The translations under genes and the position numbers were made by a program. From IMG/VR virus record IMGVR_UViG_3300025083_000282, positions 1-20,588 of that record: 20,588 bases of DNA. One strand, given 5' to 3'. Within the stretch, counting starts at the first letter, position 1. Every line of letters begins with the position of its first letter. Origin of the DNA: a virus. Shown in pieces: positions 1 through 20,381 of the stretch. The notes below the pieces were generated by a model, which made no database searches, was not told where the DNA came from, and was given only the letters and a program-made list of their open reading frames with translations.

Positions 1-1
1 A

Positions 2-124
2 AAGATTAGCGAATCAACGAAAATAAGTGAAAGATCAATTTGGAATACTTTAGACAATGGCAGAAAAAAAATACAAGAAAGCAAGAAACAAGCCTACAAA
101 AAATACAAAGACTCAAAAAAGTAA
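2..124 (+). CDS. C-terminal end of a helix-turn-helix-like protein (5' partial)
   Basis: An open frame enters from the left edge and stops at TAA 122-124, leaving about 40 residues. The visible part contains STKISERSIWNTLDNGRKKI followed by a lysine-rich tail. This resembles the recognition end of a sigma-like or transposase-like helix-turn-helix, in which an S-E-R-S/T-I-W-N segment precedes a basic R-K-K-I. It may therefore be the end of a phage transcription regulator, but the rest is outside the window. It overlaps the next gene by 68 bases, which is unusually long here. Either both are real, or this frame is a chance extension. Confidence 0.45.
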   Translation, partial: KISESTKISERSIWNTLDNGRKKIQESKKQAYKKYKDSKK

Positions 125-470
125 AGGCTTAGGCGATACAGTAGAGAAGATAACCAAAGCAACAGGAATCAAAAAAGCTGTTGATTGGTTTGTAGAGGCT
201 ACAGGAGTCGATTGTGGCTGTGATGCAAGAAAGGAGAAGCTAAACAAGTTATTCCCTTACAAACAACCTGAATGCCTTACAAGAGACGAATACGACTTTA
301 TTGGAACAATAATAAATAGATCCGTTCTAAATGTCAAGCAACAGGTGGAGCTTAATGGCATATACAATAGAGTCTTTCACCAGAGCGTAGAGATGACGAA
401 CTGCGGTTCTTGTCTAAAAGAAAGGATCGTACAACTTCAAGCGATATATAATTCTTATGAGGGAGATTGA
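57..470 (+). CDS. Conserved small phage protein, function unknown (137 aa)
   Basis: The protein has a lysine-rich N-terminus (about residues 1-24), then GLGDTVEKITKATGIKKAVD, then the cysteine pair CGC with DARKEKLNKLFPYKQPECL. I recall this core from unassigned proteins of Bacteroidota phages and know of no assigned function. Five cysteines (C52, C54 and C73, plus a C-x-x-C near residue 118) could bind a metal, which is inference only. No ATG lies between residue 1 and the conserved core, so the start at 57 is the only obvious one even though it overlaps the preceding frame. The upstream bases show no Shine-Dalgarno sequence. The end overlaps the next gene by 14 bases. Confidence 0.75.
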   Translation: MAEKKYKKARNKPTKNTKTQKSKGLGDTVEKITKATGIKKAVDWFVEATGVDCGCDARKEKLNKLFPYKQPECLTRDEYDFIGTIINRSVLNVKQQVELNGIYNRVFHQSVEMTNCGSCLKERIVQLQAIYNSYEGD

Positions 471-846
471 ATTATTTGAATTTCTTCGAGAGAAGATACC
501 TGACCTTAAATTGTCGGAGTTCAAATATTCAAAATATGATTGCTATTCAGAAAAGTATAATCTTGACATTGAGCTTAAATGTCGCAGGACTCATTACGAT
601 GACCTGTTAATTGAGAAGGCAAAATACGATGCGTTGATAAAGCGTTCTAAGAGTTTCAACACAACACCCTATTATATCAATTCAACACCTGAGGGAATCT
701 GGGCATTTGATCTTAGTAAATTTAATCCTAAGTGGGAAGAAAGAAGGATGCCGCGCACAACAGACTTCTCAAATAATAATAAAATAAACAAGGAGGTCGG
801 ATACTTAAATATCAACGAAGGAAAAAAAATTGATTTAAATAGTTGA
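457..846 (+). CDS. Small PD-(D/E)XK nuclease-like protein (129 aa)
   Basis: Residues 28-60 carry a nuclease-like signature: D28, then LDIELKCR with D37 and E39-x-K41, then a helix containing IEKAKYDAL. In the PD-(D/E)XK superfamily an acidic residue followed by E-x-K on the next strand forms the metal site, and a lysine- or tyrosine-bearing helix often follows. The C-terminal third is polar and asparagine-rich. Its length suits a minimal nuclease fold. Possible roles are recombination, host DNA degradation or resolution of branched DNA, and the sequence does not decide among them. It overlaps the upstream gene by 14 bases. The next gene has its own promoter, so this gene ends a transcription unit or lies within read-through. 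Confidence 0.55.
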   Translation: MREIELFEFLREKIPDLKLSEFKYSKYDCYSEKYNLDIELKCRRTHYDDLLIEKAKYDALIKRSKSFNTTPYYINSTPEGIWAFDLSKFNPKWEERRMPRTTDFSNNNKINKEVGYLNINEGKKIDLNS

Positions 847-872
847 TAATTGTAAAAGTTTTACTATATTAG
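843..872 (+). promoter_or_regulatory. Bacteroidota-type promoter (TTG, 19 bp, TATATTAG)
   Basis: TTG at 843-845 is followed after 19 bases by TATATTAG at 865-872, one mismatch from the Bacteroidota consensus TAnnTTTG. It overlaps the last bases of the preceding gene and lies about 30 bases before the ATG at 903. It resembles the element at 17894-17924: both begin TTGATA and both contain TTGTAAA. Confidence 0.6.
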
Positions 873-880
873 CTAAATAA

Positions 881-902
881 TAATTAAAACACACAATAAA
901 AA
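881..902 (+). promoter_or_regulatory. A-rich leader with AAAACACA core, copy 1
   Basis: TAATTAAAACACACAATAAA lies directly before the ATG at 903 and nearly repeats the sequence before the GTG at 1155. It has no Shine-Dalgarno sequence. It may be a Bacteroidota translation-start leader or an operator shared by the two units. Confidence 0.4.
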
Positions 903-1097
903 ATGCAAGCAATTATTTTTAAAGACGGAACAATAACTTATCAAAAAGGTGATTCAATCTACACAGATAAGATAGTATTAGAAAATAAAGAATACTATAC
1001 AGTTGTAGAAATAGGTTCAGGAGAAGAACTTTGGAACGCAGGATACGCAGTTGGTAGTCGAGTTTACAAAAACACAATAGACTTAACAACAATCTAA
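903..1097 (+). CDS. Small unknown protein as its own transcription unit (64 aa)
   Basis: The protein is short and soluble, apparently beta-rich, with no cysteine, signal peptide or membrane segment. It contains FKDGTITYQKGDSIYTDKIV near the N-terminus. I do not recognise a family. It is unusual here in standing alone: a promoter lies directly upstream and a strong hairpin terminator begins within 10 bases after the stop. The start is preceded by an A-rich leader without a Shine-Dalgarno sequence, as is common in Bacteroidota. A separately transcribed small phage protein of this kind is often an early or host-takeover factor, but that is inference from layout only. Confidence 0.7.
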   Translation: MQAIIFKDGTITYQKGDSIYTDKIVLENKEYYTVVEIGSGEELWNAGYAVGSRVYKNTIDLTTI

Positions 1098-1104
1098 AAA
1101 AAAT

Positions 1105-1131
1105 AGAGGGAGGGTAACACCTCCCTTTTTT
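1105..1131 (+). terminator. Rho-independent terminator
   Basis: GGGAGG at 1108-1113 pairs perfectly with CCTCCC at 1120-1125 around a six-base loop. The A before the stem pairs with the first T after it, and a run of seven T begins at 1126. It follows the stop of the 64-residue protein by 7 bases and separates it from the operon that starts at 1155. Confidence 0.85.
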
Positions 1132-1132
1132 A

Positions 1133-1154
1133 TTAATTTTAAAACACAATAACA
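1133..1154 (+). promoter_or_regulatory. A-rich leader with AAAACACA core, copy 2
   Basis: TTAATTTTAAAACACAATAA lies directly before the GTG at 1155. Relative to copy 1 it differs by a few bases within the same TTAAAACACA ... AATAA frame, and it follows the terminator closely. No promoter elements for the 1155 operon are visible between the terminator and this start. Confidence 0.4.
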
Positions 1155-1475
1155 GTGAAACAAGAATCAATAAATTCAATAAAAGAAGAGTTAACGCAAC
1201 ACGTTGAAGACGCGAGAAACGACTTTGACTTTGAAAGGGAAGACCTTCACGACCTCATATTCAACGAAGATTACTACATTATAGGTTACCACAAGGCCTC
1301 TGAATGGTTAAAGAAACACAACGTAGACGCCTTTGAAGGAATCGCTTTTGTACAGGATTACGAAAACTTTAACTTTGGTGAAGCGAGGACTTACGACAAC
1401 GCTGAAACGCTTGTAAATATGATCGTTTATATAATCGGGGAAGATGTTGTAAATTTAATTCAGGAGGAAGTATGA
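1155..1475 (+). CDS. Acidic unknown phage protein, GTG start (106 aa)
   Basis: The N-terminus is acidic and helical. A middle segment reads FNEDYYIIGYHKASEWLKKH and is followed by an aromatic and acidic stretch ending in the helical MIVYIIGEDVV. I recall similar short proteins in phages, with a conserved F-N-x-D-Y-Y-I-I-G segment, but no function for them. The GTG at 1155 is chosen because the conserved region needs an upstream helix and the leader before it resembles the leader before the 903 gene. It appears to open the long overlapping gene series that runs to the terminase. The stop overlaps the next start as ATGA. Confidence 0.7.
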   Translation: MKQESINSIKEELTQHVEDARNDFDFEREDLHDLIFNEDYYIIGYHKASEWLKKHNVDAFEGIAFVQDYENFNFGEARTYDNAETLVNMIVYIIGEDVVNLIQEEV

Positions 1476-1738
1476 CACAGAAAGAAAAGATAGCAGATTT
1501 GCAACAGAAGTTAATCCAAGCGAAAAAACATACTTATGTTTATGACACCCATACAATGTGGACAGAAAACAACGAGTTGCATATTCAATATGGAAGTGAC
1601 GACAAATTAATTGTTTTCGATATAACAAACCTTTATTCAGATTTATCACACCTTATTTATTTGGTTCACAAAGAAAATAGTAGGTGGCAAGATTATCTTG
1701 AAGACGAATTGATACAAACCATTGATAAGATAAAATGA
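1472..1738 (+). CDS. Unknown small phage protein (88 aa)
   Basis: The N-terminal 20 residues form a basic, glutamine- and lysine-rich helix, the middle appears beta-rich (residues about 22-55), and the C-terminus is helical. No known motif is visible. The start is preceded by AGGAGG at 1461-1466, one of the few clear Shine-Dalgarno sequences in the window. It overlaps both neighbours by four bases, which suggests translational coupling with the upstream acidic protein and the downstream exonuclease. A role in recombination or replication is possible from position only. Confidence 0.7.
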   Translation: MTQKEKIADLQQKLIQAKKHTYVYDTHTMWTENNELHIQYGSDDKLIVFDITNLYSDLSHLIYLVHKENSRWQDYLEDELIQTIDKIK

Positions 1739-2520
1739 TAACATTACTAAATGGCGACACTTGGGAGAAAAAAGCCATCCTAAAAAAAATGGTTGATGAT
1801 GATTTCTATTATGGTCATCTGGGAAGTAGAGCAATGAGTTCTTCTAACATTAAGCTACTAAACAAAAGTCCTAAGCATTATAAGTTCGTAACCCAATACG
1901 GACAGAACAACGATTCAACAGCTTTACAGGTAGGCAACTTTATTCATACAATGATATTAGAGCCTCATATGTTTGACGAAAGGTTTCACATTGTAGATGT
2001 TCAGAGTCGTAACGCGAAGGCGTACAAGGAAGCAAAGGCAAAATCAAATAAGATCGTCTTAACAGCCAAAGAACACGATGACAATATGAGAGTCGTTGAC
2101 GCTACCTTACGCAACGAACACGTTTTATCTTTGATAGGAGGTTGTGAATTTGAAGTACCTGCAATAGAGATGTTGGAGGGTTATGCTTTCAGAGGCAAGG
2201 CGGATATCTATGACGCTAAGCATTCGTTTATTGCAGACCTTAAAACGACTCAAGACATCCGAGCCTTCCAATACTCAGCCGAGAAATATGGTTATGACGT
2301 TCAAGCATTTATTTACACGAAACTCTTTAATGTACCAATCAGCAACTTTAAGTTTATTGCTTTGGATAAAAATTCTCTGGACATAGGCATATTCAGTATG
2401 ACCGATTCGTTTGTAAACAAGGGATACAAAAAGCTCAAAGAGGCCCTAGAGAATTACAAGCAGTTTTTTATCAATCATAACGACTTAGATTCATACACAA
2501 TTAAAGGCGTATTACAATGA
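1735..2520 (+). CDS. RecE/ExoVIII-like PD-(D/E)XK exonuclease (261 aa)
   Basis: This looks like a phage 5'-3' double-strand exonuclease for recombination. Motifs appear in family order: an S-S-S-N-I-K-L-L-N-K-S-P segment at about residues 35-46, G67-N-F-I-H71-T-M-I-L-E-P, then G-K-A-D157, then F-I-A-D168-L-K170-T-T, then Y-D-V-Q190-A-F-I-Y. In RecE and related nucleases D157, D168 and K170 would bind metal and catalyse, and Q190 lies in the QxxxY motif; Y194 completes it. Length fits the single-domain phage form rather than the long E. coli RecE. No single-strand annealing protein is recognisable in the window. It overlaps both neighbours by four bases. Confidence 0.8.
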   Translation: MITLLNGDTWEKKAILKKMVDDDFYYGHLGSRAMSSSNIKLLNKSPKHYKFVTQYGQNNDSTALQVGNFIHTMILEPHMFDERFHIVDVQSRNAKAYKEAKAKSNKIVLTAKEHDDNMRVVDATLRNEHVLSLIGGCEFEVPAIEMLEGYAFRGKADIYDAKHSFIADLKTTQDIRAFQYSAEKYGYDVQAFIYTKLFNVPISNFKFIALDKNSLDIGIFSMTDSFVNKGYKKLKEALENYKQFFINHNDLDSYTIKGVLQ

Positions 2521-2642
2521 GAGAGGACTTTATCAGGATCGCAATGGCTCAACTAAGAGGCAAATACAAATACAAACCTCAGAGACTAGCAACGGCCGCT
2601 TTTATGTATCGTAAGTGGATAGAGCGACAATCCAATAAATGA
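2517..2642 (+). CDS. Very small basic protein, 41 aa
   Basis: This 41-residue frame begins MREDFIRIAMAQLRG and ends WIERQSNK. It is strongly basic and predicted helical, with no recognised family. Support comes from junctions: its ATG overlaps the exonuclease stop as ATGA and its own stop overlaps the HNH start as ATGA, the same coupling used along this operon, and it exactly fills the gap between them. It could be a small DNA-binding accessory protein. Confidence 0.65.
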   Translation: MREDFIRIAMAQLRGKYKYKPQRLATAAFMYRKWIERQSNK

Positions 2643-2893
2643 AGAAACACACCAAGCTCTACTTAAAAGAGATGGGATACGATGAAACAGACTTTATCCC
2701 CTGTGAGGTATGTGGAGGTAAAGCAATAGACATTCACCACATAGAAGCTCGAGGGATGGGTGGAACTAAGAAAAAAGACACTATTGAGAACCTTATGGCA
2801 TTGTGTAGAAATTGTCACTATATTTATGGTGATAAGAAAGACCTGAAAGAATGGTTGCAAGAAATACACAATTGTAAATTACTTAATATATGA
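2639..2893 (+). CDS. HNH endonuclease, minimal (84 aa)
   Basis: The sequence has the compact HNH layout with two zinc-ligand pairs: C22-x-x-C25, then D31-I-H33-H34, then N51, then C56-x-x-C59-H60. In the HNH family the first histidine pair and the asparagine form the metal-dependent nick site, while the cysteines hold a structural zinc. The gene overlaps both neighbours as ATGA. Many phages carry an HNH protein that aids terminase cutting, usually next to the terminase. This one lies 3.7 kb upstream beside recombination and modification genes, so a role in recombination or host DNA breakdown is as likely. No intron or self-splicing context suggests homing. Confidence 0.85.
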   Translation: MKKHTKLYLKEMGYDETDFIPCEVCGGKAIDIHHIEARGMGGTKKKDTIENLMALCRNCHYIYGDKKDLKEWLQEIHNCKLLNI

Positions 2894-3474
2894 AAGTTAA
2901 AATAAATAAAATCTTTTCAAACGAAAATAATCCTAGAGTCATAAAGGATTATAAATTCAATCAATTAGTTAAAAGCATTAAGGAATTTCCTGAGATGTTA
3001 GAGAAACGCCCTATTGTTGTCGATGAAGATATGACGGTACTAGGAGGCAATATGAGATTAAAGGCTTGCAGAGAGGCAGGACTTAAAGAAGTTTATATTG
3101 ACATCGCAAAGGGTTGGTCAGACACCCAAAAACAACAATTCATAATCAAAGACAACGTAGGCTTTGGAGAATGGGATTGGGATTTGTTAGCGAATGAATG
3201 GGACACCGATTCGTTAAAAAGTTGGGGTATGAATATACCTAAATGGGAAGACGCAGATGATTTTAATACACAAATTGAGGATACAGGTGATTATAACTTC
3301 CCTGAAGATCAATTAGAAAACTCTCACGTTAAAATGGTTCAACTTTATTTAACAACAAGTACTGAACCCGAATTTAAAAAATGGGAATTGGACTTGAGGA
3401 AACATTTAAAAACAGATAATCTAACTGATACTGTTTTTAAGGTTATGAAGGATGCGTATGAAAGAATCAGTTGA
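2890..3474 (+). CDS. Stand-alone ParB/sulfiredoxin-fold domain protein (194 aa)
   Basis: Residues 1-100 resemble the ParB N-terminal (ParB/Srx) domain: NENNPR at 11-16, a helix, then KRPIVVDEDMTVLGGNMRLK with G52-G53-N-M-R56, and later FIIKDNVGFGEWDWDLLANE. In phages this domain is often fused to a DNA methylase, and I recall the F-I-I-K-D-N-x-G-x-G-E-W-D-W-D segment from that context. Here no methylase follows. The remaining about 90 residues are acidic, then a lysine-rich helical tail. The domain can bind or hydrolyse nucleotides in other families; its activity here is unknown. It overlaps the HNH stop as ATGA and the following dioxygenase by 23 bases, so it may guide or assist DNA modification. 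Confidence 0.75.
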   Translation: MKVKINKIFSNENNPRVIKDYKFNQLVKSIKEFPEMLEKRPIVVDEDMTVLGGNMRLKACREAGLKEVYIDIAKGWSDTQKQQFIIKDNVGFGEWDWDLLANEWDTDSLKSWGMNIPKWEDADDFNTQIEDTGDYNFPEDQLENSHVKMVQLYLTTSTEPEFKKWELDLRKHLKTDNLTDTVFKVMKDAYERIS

Positions 3475-4363
3475 AATAATAAAATTAAAGCCGAACTTGT
3501 CGGATAATCAGGTTGACAAGCTCAAAGGCACATTACTTAGCGAAAAGGATTATAACACACTTGTAACATATAACGCAGATGTATATTGTGAAGAAACAGG
3601 ACAATGTGTAGCCAAATTTCGTAAAAAAGTAATTCCTTCTAACATTGCTTCAAACGCATACAACGCACTGAAGTCAGTTGCAATATCTTCATCAAACAGG
3701 GGTATTAGCGGAGGATCAATGAATGATAAAGGGACTTTCTCAGAACAAAGAATAAAGAAAGACGGTACAAAGTCAAACACAGCTTTGGTTGATGCTGTTG
3801 CAAGTGGTATTATAGGATACTTTGACAGGAATCCAAGAACGCCTTATTGTAGACAAACAGCTTTTAATGAAAAACAATTTAACAAGTTCAAAAAAGCCTA
3901 TCCAATAATAAAGTTTGTTGACAGAGCGTATGCTCAATTAATGCCAGAGCAATATAAATTACAAAGAGATGAAGCAGATAAAACTGCACAAGACTTTGTT
4001 ATAAATGACACAGCGTTTACAACTGTTACTGTTAATAAGAATTGGCAGACGGCCGTTCACACCGACGCAGGAGATTTTGAAAAAGGGTTTGGTAATTTAG
4101 TTGCGTTACGCAAAGGTCGTTATGTTGGAGGTTATTTTGTAGTTCCAAAATGGGGAGTTGCTTTTGATTTACAAAACTCTGATTTATTATTAGTAGACGT
4201 TCATCAATGGCACGGCAATACACCTATTAAAATTTTAGATGAAGATGCAAAAAGAATTAGCCTTGTAATGTATTATAGAAAGAATATGATTCATTGTGGA
4301 ACTTCTGAGCAAGAAACAGACCGAGCAAAACACAGAAAAGAAGGAGACAAGCTAAATGGATAA
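3452..4363 (+). CDS. TET/JBP-family 2-oxoglutarate/Fe(II) dioxygenase, base hydroxylase (303 aa)
   Basis: This is a predicted oxidase of the 5-methyl group of thymine or 5-methylcytosine in DNA. The double-stranded beta-helix core lies at about residues 185-280: H203-T-D205 (HxD iron ligands), G226-G227, a V-x-x-x-x-x-D-L-L-L-V-D strand, H254 in H-Q-W-H-G (distal iron ligand), and R268 in K-R-I-S (probable 2-oxoglutarate ligand). An N-R-G segment at 82-84 also fits phage TET/JBP proteins. All expected iron ligands are present. Start choices are ATG 3452 or 3458, both within the end of the ParB-like gene. The stop overlaps the transferase gene by 8 bases. Substrate (T or 5mC) cannot be read from sequence. 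Confidence 0.75.
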   Translation: MRMKESVEIIKLKPNLSDNQVDKLKGTLLSEKDYNTLVTYNADVYCEETGQCVAKFRKKVIPSNIASNAYNALKSVAISSSNRGISGGSMNDKGTFSEQRIKKDGTKSNTALVDAVASGIIGYFDRNPRTPYCRQTAFNEKQFNKFKKAYPIIKFVDRAYAQLMPEQYKLQRDEADKTAQDFVINDTAFTTVTVNKNWQTAVHTDAGDFEKGFGNLVALRKGRYVGGYFVVPKWGVAFDLQNSDLLLVDVHQWHGNTPIKILDEDAKRISLVMYYRKNMIHCGTSEQETDRAKHRKEGDKLNG

Positions 4364-5081
4364 GCAAACTTTTTATGACTTTTCTAAATCCCTTTTAATT
4401 ACGGGGGACATTGATCCAGATTATATACTTATAAGAGAGAAGAGCAAGGAATTAGGATTTAATAAAAAACAAGTATTTAATTGGATATTACACAAGCTCG
4501 TTATCTATGACAGTTATTCGGAGTTAGAAGTAATAACAAAACAAAAGAAAATAGAAGATGTTAAATATGGCAACGAAAGGCGAAAGAGTAAGAATAAAGC
4601 AAGAGAATACTTGAACAATATTCAAAAGGCTTTTATGGATGTAGATGTTGAGAGATTTTTTTCAATGAACGGTAATAAAATTTTTAATAAAATAAAAACA
4701 ATTAATGGATTTGGATCGTGGTCAGCTTGGAAATTTATGGATTTGATCGACTGTTGTTATGGAATTAAGGTTGACTTTGATTCAATAGATTTCAGAAAGG
4801 CTTACACTTTCCCATTAAAAGGATTATTACTTGTAAATAACCTTCCAGAAGACCTTAAAATACTAAACGACACAAAGACATACAAAAGGCTTTTAGAAAA
4901 CGCTTACAGTATCTTAAAAGACCTTAAAAACTGCGATACGCCTCACAACGGGGGCAAGGGGTTAAGATTAAATGAATTAGAAACGCTTTTGTGCAAATAT
5001 CATTCTCATATGCATAATAAATATCAATCGGGCCAAGACATACTTCACTTAAAAAAAAGAGCGAAAGAATGTATAATATAA
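4356..5081 (+). CDS. HhH-fold amino acid:DNA transferase, aGPT-PPlase-like (241 aa)
   Basis: The protein appears all-helical. A helix-hairpin-helix-like turn lies at G118-F-G120-S-W-S-A-W, followed by D129, a C-C-Y-G-I-K segment and a P at 153. The C-terminus has C193-D-T-P, then NELETLLCKYHSHMHNKY (206-223) and S-G-Q-D-I. The predicted alpha-glutamyl/putrescinyl-thymine pyrophosphorylase and related amino acid:DNA transferase clades are DNA-glycosylase-like HhH proteins with a comparable E-x-L-C-x-Y end. In characterised hypermodified phages such proteins replace the phosphate on 5-phosphomethyl-uracil in DNA with an amine or amino acid. The call leans on this layout and on the neighbours. 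An unrelated HhH DNA-binding protein is the main alternative. It overlaps the genes on both sides (8 and 13 bases). Confidence 0.6.
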   Translation: MDKQTFYDFSKSLLITGDIDPDYILIREKSKELGFNKKQVFNWILHKLVIYDSYSELEVITKQKKIEDVKYGNERRKSKNKAREYLNNIQKAFMDVDVERFFSMNGNKIFNKIKTINGFGSWSAWKFMDLIDCCYGIKVDFDSIDFRKAYTFPLKGLLLVNNLPEDLKILNDTKTYKRLLENAYSILKDLKNCDTPHNGGKGLRLNELETLLCKYHSHMHNKYQSGQDILHLKKRAKECII

Positions 5082-5857
5082 TTGGAGCGGGACTTTGCGG
5101 AAGTATGGTCGCAAAAGACTTTGATAACAAAGGAATACCTTACAGGATATTTGATGCAAAACTATCTTTTGCCGCATCAATTATAAGTGAAAATCTATTT
5201 AGTGATACTTGGTTAAAAGATGTAAGCTACATAAAAGATTCGCTTGATTTTATTCATAATAATTATTTAGTAGAGAAAAGAACTTTTGAGGGCAAATTCA
5301 TAAAAAAAGAATTATATCATTTACCTATACCTGAAGTTCTTGTGAAGGAATATATTAATGAAAAGGTTATTGATTGTGATGAAGAGGGATGCAAAACAAA
5401 AACAAAATACTACAAAGGAATAAATATTGTTTGTGCAGGATTCTTAGCAAAGGCCCTTTTTAAACTTCCTAACTTAGATGCATTAACAGGTCACGGATTT
5501 TTCTTTAATAATTTTCATACTCCAGATAGAATAAATACTTACAGACCATACACGCACGAGAAAATAATGAATTGGCACGATGGCCTTATATGGTATGGAG
5601 ACAGCACGGCAATAAGGCATAAAAATTATATGAGTAAAAGAGACTCTTATATTGCTAAAAGTCTACAAAGGCTAAAAGATTATGGGATGACAAAATATAA
5701 AAAGATTGTATTTGGTTCTCGACCTATTAATGTTAAAAATCCAAGAGAGGGAATGTTTATTAGAATAAATAAGAACAACATAATAATTAATGGAGGTTGG
5801 AAAGACGGGTTAGTTATTTACCCTTATCTTATAAAAAAACTAGAAAAATGGTTATAG
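5069..5857 (+). CDS. Compact FAD-dependent amine/glycine oxidase-like protein (262 aa)
   Basis: The N-terminus is a Rossmann dinucleotide-binding site, NIIGAGLCGSMVA (G6-A-G8-L-C-G11), with D29 ending the second strand. A later strand GINIVCAG (117-124) matches the second flavin-contacting strand, G216-S-R-P fits D-amino-acid-oxidase-like enzymes, and N241-G-G-W-K-D-G with P-Y-L resembles their C-terminal flavin loop. At 262 residues it is shorter than typical 350-400 residue members, so the substrate cap must be reduced. In phage M6-type pathways an FAD enzyme of this class acts on an amino-acid-thymidine intermediate in DNA. Its place between transferase and kinase genes supports the same role here; the substrate is inferred. 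Confidence 0.65.
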   Translation: MYNIIGAGLCGSMVAKDFDNKGIPYRIFDAKLSFAASIISENLFSDTWLKDVSYIKDSLDFIHNNYLVEKRTFEGKFIKKELYHLPIPEVLVKEYINEKVIDCDEEGCKTKTKYYKGINIVCAGFLAKALFKLPNLDALTGHGFFFNNFHTPDRINTYRPYTHEKIMNWHDGLIWYGDSTAIRHKNYMSKRDSYIAKSLQRLKDYGMTKYKKIVFGSRPINVKNPREGMFIRINKNNIIINGGWKDGLVIYPYLIKKLEKWL

Positions 5858-6354
5858 CAATAGGAGGTATTCCCGCAAGTGGCAAATCAACTTTAATGAA
5901 AAAAGTATTAAGGGAGTATGAGCCATTAAAGAGTTTTAAGTATGGTTTACTTAGGGGTGTTTATTCCGAAGCTCTGAACATATACTTTTTAGGTATTTAT
6001 GACAACTCTGTTTTTTGTGGTACAGATAAATTGAGTATGGCTGTTCAGCCTCATTTTATAAAGATGATAGATAAGTTGCCTAACGCTAAATTTGTATTTG
6101 AAGGCGACAGGCTTTTTAATCAAAGTCTATTCAATAAACAAGAATGCGAAATAATTGTAATAAAGGCAAACCAAGAAACAATAGAAAAAAGGCATAATCT
6201 TAGAGGGGATAACCAAACACCTAGATTCTTAAAAGCCAAACAGACGAAAATAAATAATATATTAAGCAAGAACCAAGTCACCGTATTAGATAACAATACA
6301 GAAAAAGAGGCTCAAGAGTTATTTAAGTATATAATTAACCGAATTAACAAATGA
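5848..6354 (+). CDS. P-loop kinase, 5-hydroxymethyluracil DNA kinase-like (168 aa)
   Basis: The Walker A motif lies at the extreme N-terminus: G7-I-P-A-S-G12-K13-S14-T. Further motifs are G58-T-D-K-L-S, F84-E85-G-D-R-L-F, and an arginine-rich lid K-R-H-N-L-R-G-D-N-Q-T-P-R. This combination, especially the E-G-D-R segment, resembles the 5-hydroxymethyl-deoxyuridine DNA kinases of hypermodified phages, which phosphorylate the hydroxymethyl group in polymeric DNA. I chose ATG 5848 because it puts the P-loop just after the first strand and overlaps the FAD gene by only 10 bases; an in-frame start at 5797 would add 17 residues and a longer overlap. Another nucleotide or nucleic-acid kinase of the same fold cannot be excluded. 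It overlaps the small terminase gene as ATGA. Confidence 0.7.
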   Translation: MVIAIGGIPASGKSTLMKKVLREYEPLKSFKYGLLRGVYSEALNIYFLGIYDNSVFCGTDKLSMAVQPHFIKMIDKLPNAKFVFEGDRLFNQSLFNKQECEIIVIKANQETIEKRHNLRGDNQTPRFLKAKQTKINNILSKNQVTVLDNNTEKEAQELFKYIINRINK

Positions 6355-6701
6355 ACAAAACCGAACAACATAAAAAAGCAATAATAGAGGCGTTGGAGAA
6401 ATCTCTGGGTGTTGTAACGACAGCTTGTAAGAATGTCGGCATAGGCAGAACACAATTTTATAATTGGTTAAAAAACGACAAGCAATTTGCAAAGGAAGTT
6501 GACGAGATAAAAAACATAGCCTTAGACTTTGCAGAAAGCCAACTCCATAAACAGATAGGAGAGGGATCAACAGCCGCAACAATATTCTACCTAAAGACCA
6601 AAGGCAAACAAAGAGGTTATGTTGAGAGACAGGAAGTTCATCAAATGGGTGATAATCTCTTTGAGGTTGAAATACTAGGCGGTGAAGATTCAGACGAATA
6701 A
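6351..6701 (+). CDS. Terminase small subunit (116 aa)
   Basis: A helix-turn-helix covers about residues 8-43: V-V-T-T-A-C-K-N-V-G-I-G-R-T-Q-F-Y-N-W-L, typical of small terminase DNA-recognition domains. The middle (50-85) is helical with TAATIFYLKTKG, which I recall from small terminases of this type, and the end is acidic. The small subunit binds packaging-initiation sites and stimulates the large subunit. It overlaps the kinase gene by four bases and the large terminase gene by 20. This places packaging under the same translation-coupled operon as DNA modification. Confidence 0.8.
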   Translation: MNKTEQHKKAIIEALEKSLGVVTTACKNVGIGRTQFYNWLKNDKQFAKEVDEIKNIALDFAESQLHKQIGEGSTAATIFYLKTKGKQRGYVERQEVHQMGDNLFEVEILGGEDSDE

Positions 6702-7833
6702 AGTCTACAAACACCTCCTCAATTCTAACAAGAAGATTGTTGTTGAGCAGGGAGGAACGAGATCAGGTAAAACGTATAACATCCTGTTGTGGATTATCCT
6801 GAACTATTCAACACGCAATAAAGGAAAAGTAATAACCATATGTAGAAAGTCATTCCCATCTCTTAGAGCTTCTGTAATGAGAGATTTCTTTGAGATACTA
6901 AGAAACAATGGAGCATACTTTGAAGAGCTTCACAACCGATCTAATCACGAATACAACCTAAACGGAAACGTAGTTGAGTTCATCTCATTAGACCAACCAC
7001 AAAAGATCAGAGGTCGTAAAAGAAATTTACTATATATAAACGAGGCTAACGAATTATTCTTTGAGGATTGGCAACAGTTAATCTTCAGGACAGATGGAAG
7101 GATAATATTAGACTACAACCCGTCAGACTCTTTCCATTGGATTTATGATAAGGTAATACCCAGAGAGGATTGCGACTTCTTTCAAACAACATACAAAGAC
7201 AACCCTTTCCTTGATCAGGGCATAAGGTCAGAGATAGAAAGGTTAAGAGGTACTGATGAGGATTATTGGAGGATATACGGACTAGGAGAAAGGGGAGCAA
7301 GCAGAGCAACGATCTTTCAATTCAATATAGTTGATGAACCTAAAGGTGAGGTTGTCTCGTTAGGGTTGGACTTTGGATTTACAAACGATCCGACAGCACT
7401 TGTAAAAGTTTACAAACACGAAGGGGATTTATACATTGAAGAAATGCTATATCACACAAGGCTAACCAATTCTGACATAAGCCAAAAACTAAAGGAATTA
7501 GGATTGACCAGATACGATGAGATATGGGCAGATTCCGCAGAGCCTAAAAGCATAGAGGAGCTTCACAGGTTTGGATGGAATATAAAACCAACAGCCAAAG
7601 GACAAGACAGCATAATGGCAGGAATCGACATATTAAAACGTCATAGAATCTTTGTAACAAAAAGCAGTACGAACCTAATCAAAGAAATGCAAAACTATTC
7701 TTGGCAAGAGGATAAGAACGGAAACCTACTCAACAGGCCCGTTGATAAATGGAATCACGCAATAGATGCTATTCGATACGCTACCTTTAACAGGATGAGC
7801 CGACCTAATTACGGAAGGTATGCAATAAGATAA
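6682..7833 (+). CDS. Terminase large subunit, PBSX-type, GTG start (383 aa)
   Basis: This is the ATP-driven packaging motor and nuclease. Walker A is G24-G-T-R-S-G-K30-T31 and Walker B is L-L-Y-I-N-E121-A. The C-terminal RNase H-like nuclease has acidic residues at D230 (GLDFGF), D284 (WADSAEP) and D362 (NHAIDAIRY). D230, D284 and D362 would coordinate the two metals. The layout and length match the PBSX/Terminase_3 group. The start is the GTG at 6682, which gives a short lead before the first strand and a 20-base overlap with the small subunit. Substrate DNA may be hypermodified by the upstream cassette. Confidence 0.95.
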   Translation: MKIQTNKVYKHLLNSNKKIVVEQGGTRSGKTYNILLWIILNYSTRNKGKVITICRKSFPSLRASVMRDFFEILRNNGAYFEELHNRSNHEYNLNGNVVEFISLDQPQKIRGRKRNLLYINEANELFFEDWQQLIFRTDGRIILDYNPSDSFHWIYDKVIPREDCDFFQTTYKDNPFLDQGIRSEIERLRGTDEDYWRIYGLGERGASRATIFQFNIVDEPKGEVVSLGLDFGFTNDPTALVKVYKHEGDLYIEEMLYHTRLTNSDISQKLKELGLTRYDEIWADSAEPKSIEELHRFGWNIKPTAKGQDSIMAGIDILKRHRIFVTKSSTNLIKEMQNYSWQEDKNGNLLNRPVDKWNHAIDAIRYATFNRMSRPNYGRYAIR

Positions 7834-16360: not shown

Positions 16361-17287
16361 ATGGCTACTACTACATCTATCACTACTACCTATGCGGGAG
16401 AGTTCGCAGGGAAATACATCTCTAGTGCGTTGCTTTCAGCGGACACTTTAGATAAAGGTCTTGTCGAAATCAAGCCTAATATCAAATATAAAGAAGTTGT
16501 TAAAAAGGTCGGTACTAACGACATCGTTGCTGACGCAACTTGTGACTTTTCAGCAACGTCAACAGTAACATTGACTGAGAGAATCCTTCAGCCTGAAGAG
16601 TTCCAAGTTAATTTACAACTTTGTAAGAAAGACTTCCGATCTGATTGGGAGGCTGTACAAATGGGTTATTCAGCTTATGATAATCTACCTGCAAATTTCT
16701 CTGACTTTATTATCGGTCACGTTGCCGCTAAGGTTGCACAAAAGACTGAGCAGACTATCTGGTCAGGTGCTAACGCAACAGCAGGAGAGTTTGATGGCTT
16801 TACAGCTTTGATGACAGCAGACGGAGACGTTAACGACGTTACAGGAACAACTGTTGACGCGGCTAACGTAATCGCAGAACTAGGAAAAGTTGCAGACGCT
16901 ATCCCAAGTGCTGTTTATGGTAAGGAAGACTTAACAATCTACGTTCCTTCAAATGTTGCTCGTGCTTATGTTCGTGCTTTAGGAGGATTCGGAGCTTCTG
17001 GTCTTGGTGCTAATGGTACAGACAACAAAGGAACTCAATGGTACGGAAACGAGCCATTATTCTTTGACGGAATCAGAGTTGCTCTAGTTGGTGGTTTAGC
17101 CGCTAACACAATGGTTGCCGCTCAAGCGTCCAACCTCTACTTCGGCACAGGTTTATTATCAGACCATAACGAAGTGAAGTTGTTGGATATGGGTGACCTT
17201 GACGGATCACAGAACGTGAGAGTTATTATGAGATATACAGCAGGTGTTCAGTACGGAATTGGTTCTGACTGCGTATTGTACTCGTAA
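16361..17287 (+). CDS. Major capsid protein (308 aa)
   Basis: The protein has the character of an HK97-fold capsid subunit: a flexible threonine-rich N-terminus, RILQPEEFQVNLQLCKKDFR at about 75-94, helix-rich F-I-I-G-H-V-A-A-K-V-A-Q-K-T-E-Q-T-I-W-S-G, E-D-L-T-I-Y-V-P-S-N-V-A-R-A-Y, and a final Q-N-V-R-V-I-M-R-Y-T-A-G-V-Q-Y-G. It follows the scaffold-like gene by 9 bases and ends at a strong terminator. By eye, its codons use more C-ending forms (AAC, GAC, TTC) than neighbours, as expected for a highly expressed gene. Its length is normal for a small capsid subunit. Confidence 0.8.
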   Translation: MATTTSITTTYAGEFAGKYISSALLSADTLDKGLVEIKPNIKYKEVVKKVGTNDIVADATCDFSATSTVTLTERILQPEEFQVNLQLCKKDFRSDWEAVQMGYSAYDNLPANFSDFIIGHVAAKVAQKTEQTIWSGANATAGEFDGFTALMTADGDVNDVTGTTVDAANVIAELGKVADAIPSAVYGKEDLTIYVPSNVARAYVRALGGFGASGLGANGTDNKGTQWYGNEPLFFDGIRVALVGGLAANTMVAAQASNLYFGTGLLSDHNEVKLLDMGDLDGSQNVRVIMRYTAGVQYGIGSDCVLYS

Positions 17288-17307
17288 AAATTAATTATTA
17301 ACATAAA

Positions 17308-17345
17308 AGAGGGTAGGTGGGTTTTACTACCTGCCCTTTTTTTTT
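17308..17345 (+). terminator. Rho-independent terminator after the major capsid gene
   Basis: GGGTAGGT (17311-17318) pairs with ACCTGCCC (17329-17336), including one G-T wobble, around a 10-base loop and is followed by nine T. It lies about 20 bases after the capsid stop. Partial termination here would raise capsid mRNA relative to the genes downstream. Confidence 0.85.
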
Positions 17346-17360
17346 AAACTTAAATAAAAA

Positions 17361-17897
17361 ATGGCTTGTGATTTAACAATAGGAAGAGCAGTACCTTGTA
17401 AAGATGTGGTTGGCGGGATCAAGTCCGTTTACTTTGTTGATTTCGGGGACTTCGGCGCAATCGGTTATGATTCAACAAACACAGACGCAATCGAGACAAT
17501 TGCGGGAACGCCCACAGCGTTTCAATATGACGTAAAAGGTAATTCTTCATTCACTCAAAATGTTAACTCCTCTCGTGAGAATGGGACAACATTTTATGAG
17601 CAGGTTTTGGAGCTTACTTTCACGAAACTAGATAAGCAATCTCATAAGGAATTAAAGTTGATGGCTTATGGCAGACCTCACGTATTTGTAGAGGACTACA
17701 ATGGCAACATCTTTTTGATGGGATTAGAATTTGGAGCAGAGATTACAGGAGGCACGATTGTAACAGGTGCGGCTATGGGAGATTTAAGCGGATATACTTT
17801 GAGCTTAACAGCGCAAGAGAAAAAGCCTGCGAACTTCTTAGACGATACTTTAGCAACTGTTGGTATTACTGTAAGTGGAACTCAAATTGAGCCTTGA
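17361..17897 (+). CDS. Tail-tube-like structural protein (178 aa)
   Basis: The protein starts MACDLTIGRAVPCKDVVGGI, a segment I recall from abundant structural proteins of Bacteroidota phages. The middle has S-S-F-T-Q-N-V-N-S-S-R-E-N-G-T-T-F-Y and the end G-D-L-S-G-Y-T-L-S-L-T-A-Q-E-K-K-P-A-N-F-L. The length, beta-rich character and duplicated strand pattern fit a major tail tube protein, which would be made in many copies. A capsid-decoration role is the alternative because it lies directly after the major capsid gene. The start follows the terminator by 15 bases with an A-rich leader. Cysteines C3 and C13 could pair or bind metal. Confidence 0.6.
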   Translation: MACDLTIGRAVPCKDVVGGIKSVYFVDFGDFGAIGYDSTNTDAIETIAGTPTAFQYDVKGNSSFTQNVNSSRENGTTFYEQVLELTFTKLDKQSHKELKLMAYGRPHVFVEDYNGNIFLMGLEFGAEITGGTIVTGAAMGDLSGYTLSLTAQEKKPANFLDDTLATVGITVSGTQIEP

Positions 17898-17924
17898 TAG
17901 TTTGTAAATAAAGTTCTATCTTTG
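17894..17924 (+). promoter_or_regulatory. Bacteroidota-type promoter (TTG, 20 bp, TATCTTTG)
   Basis: TTG (17894-17896) is followed after 20 bases by TATCTTTG (17917-17924), a perfect match to TAnnTTTG. It starts inside the last codons of the preceding gene. A second TTTG at 17901 is too close to the downstream element. A start site near 17931 would be expected. Confidence 0.7.
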
Positions 17925-17930
17925 TATTTC

Positions 17931-17998
17931 GTATCAGCGTATATTCGCTAGGTATGTTATTGTGTGTAGAAGGGGGGATTATTTCCCCCTTTCTTTTT
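17931..17998 (+). ncRNA. Candidate short transcript or attenuated leader
   Basis: The interval between a strong promoter and a G/C-rich hairpin with a T-rich end is only about 70 bases and holds no gene with a plausible start. It contains a second small hairpin, AGCG (17936-17939) with CGCT (17946-17949). It may be a small RNA or the regulated 5' leader of the 18034-20381 genes. No known RNA family is recognised. Confidence 0.3.
17969..17998 (+). terminator. Terminator-like hairpin in the leader before the 18034 gene
   Basis: AGGGGG (17971-17976) pairs with CCCCCT (17985-17990) around an eight-base loop and is followed by TTCTTTTT. It lies after the promoter at 17894 and before the start at 18034, so it either ends the upstream transcript or attenuates the new one. 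Confidence 0.65.
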
Positions 17999-18033
17999 GG
18001 AATAAACTTTCACTTTTTAGTTATTTAAGTACG

Positions 18034-18369
18034 ATGCACATTTTACAAGTATCCGACTCTAATCAATCCCTTGTGATTATTCCACGTTCACACCCTGTGA
18101 GTGTGACTATGAAATTAATTGACGAGTCTAAAAATACAACAGCAACACCTTCTGTAAGTGTATCCTCCTCGAATGGTTTTATGACTCTTACAGGCACTTT
18201 CTCTCTGGTAAACAACAGATACTATACCTTAAAGATTTTAGACGGTTTTAACGTAATATATCAAGACCGAGTTTTTGTAACTTCACAAACAGAATTAGAC
18301 AAGTACACGGTGAACGAAGGTGTTTACACAAAGGAAACGTCTTATAATAATGAATATGTAATCATATGA
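18034..18369 (+). CDS. Small unknown phage protein before the portal gene (111 aa)
   Basis: The protein is beta-rich, with HILQVSDSNQSLVIIPRS at the start, a serine- and threonine-rich middle and Y-N-N-E-Y-V-I-I at the end. I recall this ending from small proteins next to portal genes in Bacteroidota phages, but no function. An earlier in-frame GTG at 17962 would place the start inside the hairpin stem and add a non-conserved peptide, so ATG 18034 is preferred; TTATTTAA at 18021-18028 precedes it. The stop overlaps the portal start as ATGA. A head or neck structural role is plausible. Confidence 0.65.
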   Translation: MHILQVSDSNQSLVIIPRSHPVSVTMKLIDESKNTTATPSVSVSSSNGFMTLTGTFSLVNNRYYTLKILDGFNVIYQDRVFVTSQTELDKYTVNEGVYTKETSYNNEYVII

Positions 18370-20381
18370 GCAACATTAGATTTGTAAATCTCTCGTCATA
18401 CACAACACCCGAAGTAAAGGAATATAAGAATGTGGAATGGGTGAGTTATGGCGACAACAACGACTACTTCCAATATCTTATTGACAGGTATAACGGATCA
18501 GCATCCAACTCAGCTATTATAAATGGCATTAGCGAGCTTATCTACGGTAAAGGGTTAGATGCTACCGACTCAGCAAGAAGACCTCTACAATACGCTCAAA
18601 TGAAGTCTTTATTTTCTAAAGATTGTATGCGTAAGGTGTCGGCAGATTTAAAGATGATGGGCCAATGTGCTTTTCAGATTATTTATTCAAAGGATCACTC
18701 AAAGGTTACTGAAGTTCATCATATGCCTATCGAAAGCCTGAGAGCCGAAAGGTGTAATGACGAGGGAGATGTTGAGGCTTATTACTACGCCAAAGATTGG
18801 GACGCAGTAGGAAACAAAAAAGAAACACCTTTACGAATACCCTCTTTTGGACAAAGCAACGAAGGAATTGAGATTCTATATGTAAGACCTTATCGACCAT
18901 CATTCTATTATTATTCGCCTGTTGACTATCAGGGAGGCTTACCTTATGCGGAGCTTGAAGAGGAGGTTTCTAACTATCACCTAAACAACATCAAGAACGG
19001 GATGAGTCCTTCAATGCTGATTAACTTCAACAACGGAGTACCAACGGAGGAAGAGAGATACACAATAGAAAACAGGATTGCAGAAAAGTATTCAGGAACG
19101 AGCAACTCTGGTAAGTTTATATTGAGCTTCAACGACAATAAAGAGATGGCCGCAGATATTACGCCTGTACAATTGTCAGACGCTTCAGATCAATATCAGT
19201 TCCTAGCTGATGAGTCAATGAGAAAGTTAATGGTATCTCACAGGGTTACTTCGCCAATGCTTTTAGGTATTAAAGACCAGAGTGGACTAGGAAACAACGC
19301 AGAGGAGCTTAAAACAGCTTCAGCGTTATTTGACAACACAGTCATAAGAGTATTCCAAGAGCTTTTACTTGATGCGGTTGATAAGATACTTGCTTACAAC
19401 GATATTTCGTTAAATGTATATTTTAAGACCTTACAGCCTTTAGAATTTAAGGATGATATAATCACAGATAAGGAAACAAAAGAAGAAGAGACAGGAGTCA
19501 AGTTGGGTTCTGTGGATTTGAAAAAGCCTTGTCAAGCGGGTTACGAGCAATATGGGATGAAAACGAAGAACGGAAAGAAAGTTCCTAATTGCATACCAAT
19601 AAAAAATAGCGAAGATGTAAGACTAAAAGAGATTGATGGTCAAAAGGTTTACAATACAATAGAAGAGGCAGAGGAGGCCGCATTAGCAAAAGGTTGCAAA
19701 GGACATCACGAACACGAAGAGGATGGAGTCATTTGGTATATGCCTTGCGAGTCTCACGACGAGGTTATTAATATGTCATCAGATATTGACGACGAACACC
19801 TTGACGAAGTCTTTGCAGAGCTTGAGGACTTGGGAGAAGTGATTAACGAAGACGAGTGGGAGCTTATCGAGGAAGCACCTGTTGATTATGATGCAGAAGC
19901 ACAGATGGATAAGTTCTTTGCTTTCGCCTCAACAGGAGTAGCTAAGACAAACGCTAAATCTTCACAAGATGGCGTAACACCTGAAGGCAGACCTTACAAG
20001 ATTCGTTATGGTTATGCTCCAAAAAGAAACAATCCAAACTCCAGAGAATTTTGTAAAAAGATGGAGAAGGCTAACAAGGTCTATCGTAAAGAAGATATTC
20101 TTGCAATGGGATCAAGACGAGTGAACGCAGGTTTTGGGCCTAGAGGCGCAGACACTTACGACATATGGCTTTACAAAGGAGGAGCTAGGTGTCATCACTT
20201 CTGGATGCGTAAGGTATTTATGGCGAAAGAAGACGCACGAGCAGTTGACGCCAAAAACCCAAGAGCAGAGATAAGCGTAAACAAAGCCAAAAGAGAAGGC
20301 GCAGACGTTGAGGTAAATGATAGAAAGGTAGCTACAAGGCCCGTAGATATGCCTAATCAAGGATTTTTAAACCCAAGATAA
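18366..20381 (+). CDS. Portal protein with three C-terminal extra modules (671 aa)
   Basis: The first about 360 residues are portal-like: W-V-S-Y-G-D-N-N-D-Y near the start, A-I-I-N-G-I-S-E-L-I-Y-G-K-G, then N-Y-H-L-N-N-I-K-N-G-M-S-P-S, then S-H-R-V-T-S-P-M-L-L-G-I-K-D and a long helix. The portal forms the dodecameric DNA gate. Beyond it are a C389-Q-A-G-Y-E-Q-Y-G-M-K ... P-N-C409 module, a K-G-C444-K-G-H-H-x-H ... W-Y-M-P-C461 module, and a C-terminal domain (about 543-620) with Y-G-Y-A-P-K-R, C563 and G-G-A-R-C609-H-H-F-W. The C/H clusters may bind metal. Portals of this class are typically near 450 residues, so about 200 are extra. Confidence 0.8.
   Translation: MSNIRFVNLSSYTTPEVKEYKNVEWVSYGDNNDYFQYLIDRYNGSASNSAIINGISELIYGKGLDATDSARRPLQYAQMKSLFSKDCMRKVSADLKMMGQCAFQIIYSKDHSKVTEVHHMPIESLRAERCNDEGDVEAYYYAKDWDAVGNKKETPLRIPSFGQSNEGIEILYVRPYRPSFYYYSPVDYQGGLPYAELEEEVSNYHLNNIKNGMSPSMLINFNNGVPTEEERYTIENRIAEKYSGTSNSGKFILSFNDNKEMAADITPVQLSDASDQYQFLADESMRKLMVSHRVTSPMLLGIKDQSGLGNNAEELKTASALFDNTVIRVFQELLLDAVDKILAYNDISLNVYFKTLQPLEFKDDIITDKETKEEETGVKLGSVDLKKPCQAGYEQYGMKTKNGKKVPNCIPIKNSEDVRLKEIDGQKVYNTIEEAEEAALAKGCKGHHEHEEDGVIWYMPCESHDEVINMSSDIDDEHLDEVFAELEDLGEVINEDEWELIEEAPVDYDAEAQMDKFFAFASTGVAKTNAKSSQDGVTPEGRPYKIRYGYAPKRNNPNSREFCKKMEKANKVYRKEDILAMGSRRVNAGFGPRGADTYDIWLYKGGARCHHFWMRKVFMAKEDARAVDAKNPRAEISVNKAKREGADVEVNDRKVATRPVDMPNQGFLNPR

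Follow-up and report, generated by a model that had tools for sequence, protein, structure and literature searches.

Thymidine hypermodification that begins with a TET/JBP dioxygenase has already been proposed in outline for phages. Roles of phage TET/JBP proteins in complex base modification were reportedly predicted by Iyer et al. in 2013, a phage TET is said to have been found active in cytosine hypermodification by Burke et al. in 2021, and glycine-derived thymidine marks and flavin lyases were reportedly described by Lee et al. in 2022. An excerpt of PMC11955845 credits Tonitrus with a possible system for thymidine hypermodification, made up of ParB, a tet-like protein, aGPT-Pplase2 and a kinase, and a kinase-phosphorylated 5hmdU intermediate is stated in an excerpt of another (PMC6449724).

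In the thymidine-hypermodifying Pseudomonas phages PaMx11 and Ab18, an ADDT (amino acid:DNA transferase) gene is followed by genes for a flavin protein, an acetyltransferase and a kinase, the last of which is annotated as terminase small subunit, and then by an unknown gene and thymidylate synthase; the order in Sonora is similar. PaMx11 gp46 is PDB 8z2m, named 'Glycinyltransferase' (match 3.9e-206), and the gene that it precedes, gp47, is PDB 8z2o (end-to-end match 3.6e-191). PaMx11, Ab18, Epa5, Sonora and M6 all contain PF00303 (ThyA; 5/5) and none contains Tet_JBP (0/5). In each of the four ThyA-type phages annotated in this region, ThyA and ADDT are no more than ~6 kb apart.

Here, we analysed a window of 20588 bases, which is the entire virus record IMGVR_UViG_3300025083_000282. 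We propose that the genes at 2890 to 6354 form a thymidine-hypermodification cassette, in which a TET would generate 5-hydroxymethyl-dU (5-hmdU), and a kinase, an ADDT and a flavin lyase would carry it to 5-aminomethyl-dU; homology and gene neighbourhood lead us to give this reading a probability of approximately 0.72. The TET would replace the ThyA-like dUMP hydroxymethylase in this cassette.

Gene content of the cassette

The record is linear, comes from an uncultivated marine phage, and is probably a fragment; therefore, the absence of a gene from the window alone is little proof. Its large terminase is ~38% identical to Flavobacterium phage terminases, a likeness that only hints at a Bacteroidota host.

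Five genes on the plus strand overlap or abut one another in the order ParB-like, TET/JBP, ADDT, flavin protein and P-loop kinase, and the terminase genes follow directly (Table 1). The first-pass annotation had placed the TET at the head of the cassette; that place belongs to the ParB-like gene, which overlaps the TET start by 23 bases, and two more pathway genes, the ADDT and the flavin lyase homologue, separate the TET from the kinase. The helix-turn-helix protein at the cassette end belongs to a cluster (c4) present in 40 loci. Just upstream of the cassette are an HNH endonuclease gene (2639-2893) and a DUF3799 exonuclease-like gene (1735-2520).

Table 1. Genes of the proposed cassette and the adjoining terminase genes, with their matches.
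Product	Coordinates	Strand	Matches
ParB-like protein, 194 aa, cassette gene 1	2890..3474	+	PF02195 ParB_N 1.6e-4 (below cut-off); phrog_498, phrog_620
TET/JBP 2-oxoglutarate/Fe(II) dioxygenase, 303 aa, proposed thymine hydroxylase	3452..4363	+	PF12851 9e-28
ADDT, 241 aa, proposed glycinyltransferase	4356..5081	+	PF18724 2.4e-9; PaMx11 gp46 3.9e-10 (family profile)
Flavin-dependent lyase homologue, 262 aa	5069..5857	+	PDB 8z2o 3.3e-6 (family profile A2); PaMx11 gp47 1.3e-8 (family profile)
P-loop kinase, 168 aa counted from ATG 5848, proposed 5-hmdU DNA kinase	5848..6354	+	phrog_800 3.3e-12
Helix-turn-helix protein, probable small terminase, marks cassette end	6351..6701	+	HTH_8 7.1e-6; weak Sf6_terminase 0.028
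Large terminase	6682..7833	+	PF17288 2.7e-22; PF04466 1e-20

The TET/JBP protein had been described as apparently intact, and this was borne out by its Pfam match (PF12851, score 97 bits, cut-off 34.9, covering profile positions 2-164 of 164). It has an HxD...H iron triad and a 2OG-binding arginine (H203, D205, H254 and R268), and these four residues were invariant in 16/16 aligned relatives. Among 84 distinct full-length TET rows, a few of which are start variants of one record, H203 and D205 were kept in all 84; for H254 and R268 the number was 83, the remaining row having a gap. Translation could equally well begin at an in-frame ATG at 3458. Against PDB sequences, the TET profile gave only weak matches to TET2 (E 0.27), with which its motifs align weakly, and the predicted structure, in which a double-stranded beta-helix fold would be expected, was a poor model (pLDDT 46). 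Position D208, three residues after the HxD aspartate, was tried as a marker of thymine versus 5-methylcytosine (5mC) and rejected, as the contexts were not separated: actinophages have N at this position, and Melnitz-3, in which TET and C5-methylase genes are neighbours, has D like the window; therefore, D208 does not tell the two substrates apart. A trap in annotation is that many phage TET/JBP proteins bear the name queuine tRNA-ribosyltransferase or SNF2 DNA repair protein (phrog_6059).

The window ADDT scored 37.7 bits with PF18724 (cut-off 26.2), and its family profile matched PaMx11 gp46. The flavin protein had no Pfam match; profile A2, built on eight relatives, matched PDB 8z2o over positions 4-253, nearly its full length, and PDB 8z79 at 1.6e-5, both of which are named 'Flavin-dependent lyase'. 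A tblastn search for relatives of the flavin protein gave 16 phage records, PaMx11 among them; 15 belong to Pseudomonas phages and the other to a Stenotrophomonas phage. The family matched PaMx11 gp47; its predicted structure was a poor model (pLDDT 35). Taken together, the matches to gp46 and gp47 equate the central part of the window cassette with the PaMx11 pair.

The kinase reached no curated family in the Pfam scan. The profile phrog_800 takes both the window kinase and M6 gp54 (2e-39), and the window kinase profile matched M6 gp54 at 7.9e-6 and the actinophage kinases (PF18751) at 8.8e-15. Only the P-loop aligned with the PaMx11 kinase, and matches in PDB were weak and to other P-loop proteins. 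At least 597 stretches contain the kinase family, and among the 80 retained, most of those with enough flank also carry a TET. Modification kinases are another annotation trap, being labelled terminase small subunit (phrog_800).

Source of the hydroxymethyl base

The first-pass annotation had seen neither a hydroxymethylase nor a C5-methylase in the window, and our searches agreed: ThyA (PF00303), ThyX (PF02511), PF00145, phrog_757 and phrog_363 were unmatched there. As a positive control, the same PF00303 search found the diverged hydroxymethylase of M6 (5.5e-20). Extended to the records of relatives, the absence held for ThyA and not throughout for C5-methylases, homologues of which occur in 4/64. 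PF00303 was found in 0/42 and 0/22 cassette-family virus records (0/64 together), most of which are fragments, so that this absence is pooled and does not apply genome by genome. PF00145 matched in two of the 42 records (one under the cut-off) and two of the 22, and ADDT was present in 40/42; these counts for the first 42, like that for PF00303, exclude loci on the shortest contigs. A TET is present in 62/64 records, namely all 42 of the first set, which were chosen by TET, and 20/22 of the second; the two others are L153, which is cut upstream, and L144. The latter carries at 1079-5411 a ParB gene, a PLP-like enzyme (by eye), a radical SAM gene, an ADDT and a window-family kinase, resembling the M6 set, and neither TET nor ThyA was found in its 26 kb record.

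Cultured phages were also compared. ThyA was not found in the complete genomes of Wooper, Tonitrus, LilMcDreamy and Reprobate, which are ParB-TET-ADDT-kinase phages, and neither were C5-methylase and ThyX where these were searched for. Across 20 cultured TET phages, ThyA was found in one (Cr30), C5-methylase in one (Melnitz-3) and ThyX in three (DLP_6, S-CBWM1 and Melnitz-3). Cr30 has a TET, an ADDT and a window-family kinase together with an ordinary ThyA, and it counts against our model. The earlier suggestion that thymine is oxidized without a nucleotide-level enzyme and then feeds a kinase was supported by this comparison, as ThyA is absent from all 64 records and the downstream enzymes are of the 5-hmdU pathway; that the TET acts on DNA and not on a nucleotide is predicted from its family.

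A hydroxymethyl-dUMP synthase could instead lie in the missing part of the genome, with the TET oxidizing hmU further to formyl- or carboxy-dU. The fragmentary window and the joint presence of TET and ThyA in Cr30 would allow this, and stepwise oxidation is possible for TETs according to an excerpt of PMC11065753. However, ThyA was absent from all cassette-family records and from the four complete cultured genomes, ThyA-type phages keep the gene close to ADDT, and the kinase would need an alcohol rather than an aldehyde or acid. We consider this alternative very unlikely.

The TET may also act on 5mC supplied by the host or by a distant phage methylase, in which case the kinase, ADDT and lyase would decorate 5-hydroxymethylcytosine. 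Such an origin would fit the C5-methylase homologues in four records, the presence of a full C5-methylase together with a TET in Melnitz-3, the activity reportedly seen by Burke et al. and the failure of D208 to discriminate. The homologues in G029 and G031 (loci L062 and L063) were considered as a hidden source of 5mC and rejected, being short and well away from the cassette; their best matches are different PHROG families, and homologues of this type were not found in the other 27 of the 29 virus records tested. A further match, of 231 aa, is in G048. In L133 (3774-5505) and L135 (2520-4251), a CmoA homologue and a full-length C5-methylase homologue stand directly after TET-ADDT-kinase. The gene that precedes the C5-methylase homologue in L133 matches CmoA at 4.5e-34, under the NCBI equivalog cut-off, and the C5-methylase homologue itself carries an SPPC motif. 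According to an excerpt of PMC12783734, 5-carboxymethylcytosine is made in phage S-B43 by CmoA together with CmoX, a carboxymethyltransferase with an SPPC motif. The CmoA neighbour and the SPPC motif together indicate that the L133 enzyme is probably not one that makes 5mC; it was therefore dropped as a counter-example, its neighbour suggesting carboxymethylcytosine instead. These pairs probably represent a second, separate cytosine modification beside the thymine-marking cassette. Given also that 60/64 cassette-family records and 19/20 cultured TET phages had no C5-methylase match, and that the downstream enzymes are homologous to those of thymidine-hypermodifying phages, 5mC is disfavoured as the TET substrate, and an origin from it is unlikely.

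Proposed pathway and exchange of its middle segment

The analysis establishes gene order, family membership, conserved catalytic residues, the absence of ThyA and co-conservation; from these we infer what each enzyme of the thymidine pathway does, that thymine in DNA is the substrate, in which order the steps run, what they yield and whether they are targeted, as follows. The TET, perhaps guided by the ParB-like protein, would oxidize the 5-methyl group of thymine in finished phage DNA to give 5-hydroxymethyl-dU, and the P-loop kinase would phosphorylate its hydroxyl. The ADDT would then swap the phosphate for an amino acid, most likely glycine, and the flavin lyase would strip the carboxymethyl part to leave 5-aminomethyl-dU. 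As the cassette has no acetyltransferase, the amine would be the end product. The purpose of the modification is likely restriction evasion.

We mapped 58 loci, namely the window, four cultured phages and 53 virus loci that had been picked up through their TET. The order ParB-TET-GAT-GNAT-ADDT-kinase was found in 21/58, where GAT denotes a class II glutamine amidotransferase domain and GNAT a domain resembling acetyltransferases; 13/58, including the window, had ParB-TET-ADDT-flavin-kinase, 8/58 had ParB-TET-GAT-ADDT-kinase, and the remaining 16/58 were cut or different. The alternative module, seen at 1699-3561 of L004 and in cluster c5 (36 loci), consists of the class II glutamine amidotransferase, an optional GNAT and a longer ADDT. 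L004 is the closest distinct relative of the window by TET, yet it carries the GAT-GNAT-ADDT module: its DNA matched the window at 2664-4362 (89.9%) and 5852-6473 (95.8%), with no match in between. The same pattern of matched flanks and unmatched middle was found in L013 and L017, at 93-96%. On a TET tree of 45 rows, in which L009 (short ADDT, no flavin gene) was scored as flavin type, module type required seven changes, at least five of which were forced by well-supported branches. Related phages have thus swapped the segment between TET and kinase on at least five occasions, a finding that is new to the extent that the tools used can tell. TET and kinase thus form a constant frame for a replaceable middle, and such a frame would fit a common phosphorylated hydroxymethyl intermediate.

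Gene order and TET lineage also vary around the same partners. L100 has TET, kinase, flavin lyase and ADDT in a different order. L130, L132, L140, L141 and L142 fell on the actinophage TET side of an 82-row tree, apart from the window clade, although the long branches make deep placements unsure; despite the separate TET clade, the ParB, GAT, GNAT, ADDT and kinase genes of L130, L132 and L140 belong to the same families. These observations bear on the idea that the substrate of the TET is RNA, protein or free nucleotides and that it lies in the cassette by chance. Its activity in the window is predicted from sequence, and an excerpt of PMC4787775 describes a 2OG enzyme, thymine-7-hydroxylase, with free thymine as substrate, both of which would suit that idea. 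However, in spite of at least five middle-segment exchanges, the TET has kept its position between ParB and the modification genes, and it keeps its partners in the other gene order of L100 and across two TET clades, which makes an incidental position highly improbable.

Other TET loci carry other genes. In L075 (phage Acadian, a cultured Mycobacterium smegmatis phage), positions 1-3588 hold a ParB-like gene, a TET, a TET-associated glycosyltransferase, a PIG-L deacetylase-like gene and a kinase, a set that suggests a different decoration chemistry. Close TET relatives in L055 (P12024L, 16409-18674), L050 and L053 are followed by TET-associated glycosyltransferases, in L053 also by a radical SAM gene; no C5-methylase match was found in these three, and a base J-like glycosylated hmU is possible there.

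A ParB-like gene adjoins the TET in 53/69 TETs with room upstream. Six of the 16 TETs without a detected neighbour are from actinophages, whose ParB-like genes were missed by the marine profile; the window ParB profile matches actinophage ParB genes at 9.7e-11. ParB-TET fusions were sought in the TET survey and none was found. ParB-domain neighbours of CmoX are mentioned, with function unknown, in an excerpt of PMC12783734. We propose, on the hint from neighbourhood only, that the ParB-like protein is a DNA-targeting or loading partner of the TET. A more specific version, which would be a bacterial-virus counterpart of JBP action and which we hold as tentative, is that it loads the TET at chosen sites, that only selected thymines of completed DNA are oxidized and phosphorylated, and that swappable middle modules (glycinyltransferase and flavin lyase, or glutamine amidotransferase, acetyltransferase and longer ADDT) set the side chain. 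If so, a virus could alter the chemistry of its mark by a swap of one segment, with TET and kinase unchanged.

Comparison with described systems

If the thymidine pathway is correct, two routes to 5-hydroxymethyl-dU converge on one amino-thymine pathway, one through a ThyA homologue before replication and the other through a TET after it. The post-replicative route could in principle mark chosen sites with the dNTP pool unaltered. The link to a known amino-thymine pathway and to cultured relatives makes the substrate of thymine-acting phage TETs directly testable, and the exchangeable TET-kinase segment offers a natural series for discovering new DNA-decorating enzymes.

Melnitz-3, with its TET and C5-methylase, is like the window in having a TET/JBP dioxygenase in a phage DNA-modification context; systems of this type differ in that the window, whose record may be a fragment, has no C5-methylase and no TET-associated glycosyltransferase among the scanned cassette genes. 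Kinetoplastid JBP1/JBP2 resemble the path proposed here in that a TET/JBP-family enzyme hydroxylates thymine in DNA and the hydroxyl is then modified (excerpt of PMC11065753). Base J arises by glucosylation, whereas the window would use a kinase, amino acid transfer and a flavin lyase; the Pfam scan of the window TET gave the Tet_JBP domain only, and no base J-type glycosyltransferase was found among the scanned window cassette genes. The actinophages Wooper, Tonitrus, LilMcDreamy and Reprobate share the ParB, TET, aGPT/ADDT and kinase families with the window and likewise lack ThyA, in complete genomes. However, their TETs form a different, deeply separate clade, and no flavin lyase was identified in their sets, unlike in the window; Wooper gene 5 had no Pfam match over the cut-off.

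PaMx11, as well as Ab18 and Epa5, is like the window in having an ADDT/glycinyltransferase followed by a flavin-dependent lyase, with a P-loop kinase, in one cluster. PaMx11 has a ThyA homologue and an acetyltransferase without a TET, whereas the window has a TET and a ParB-like gene with neither ThyA nor acetyltransferase. As ThyA was not found, we liken the window to the PaMx11 pathway from hmU onward and do not class it as a member. The literature searched, outside which key papers lie, yielded no report of a flavin lyase together with a TET. Within the reach of the tools used, the combination of a TET and a PaMx11-type ADDT and flavin lyase is new here.
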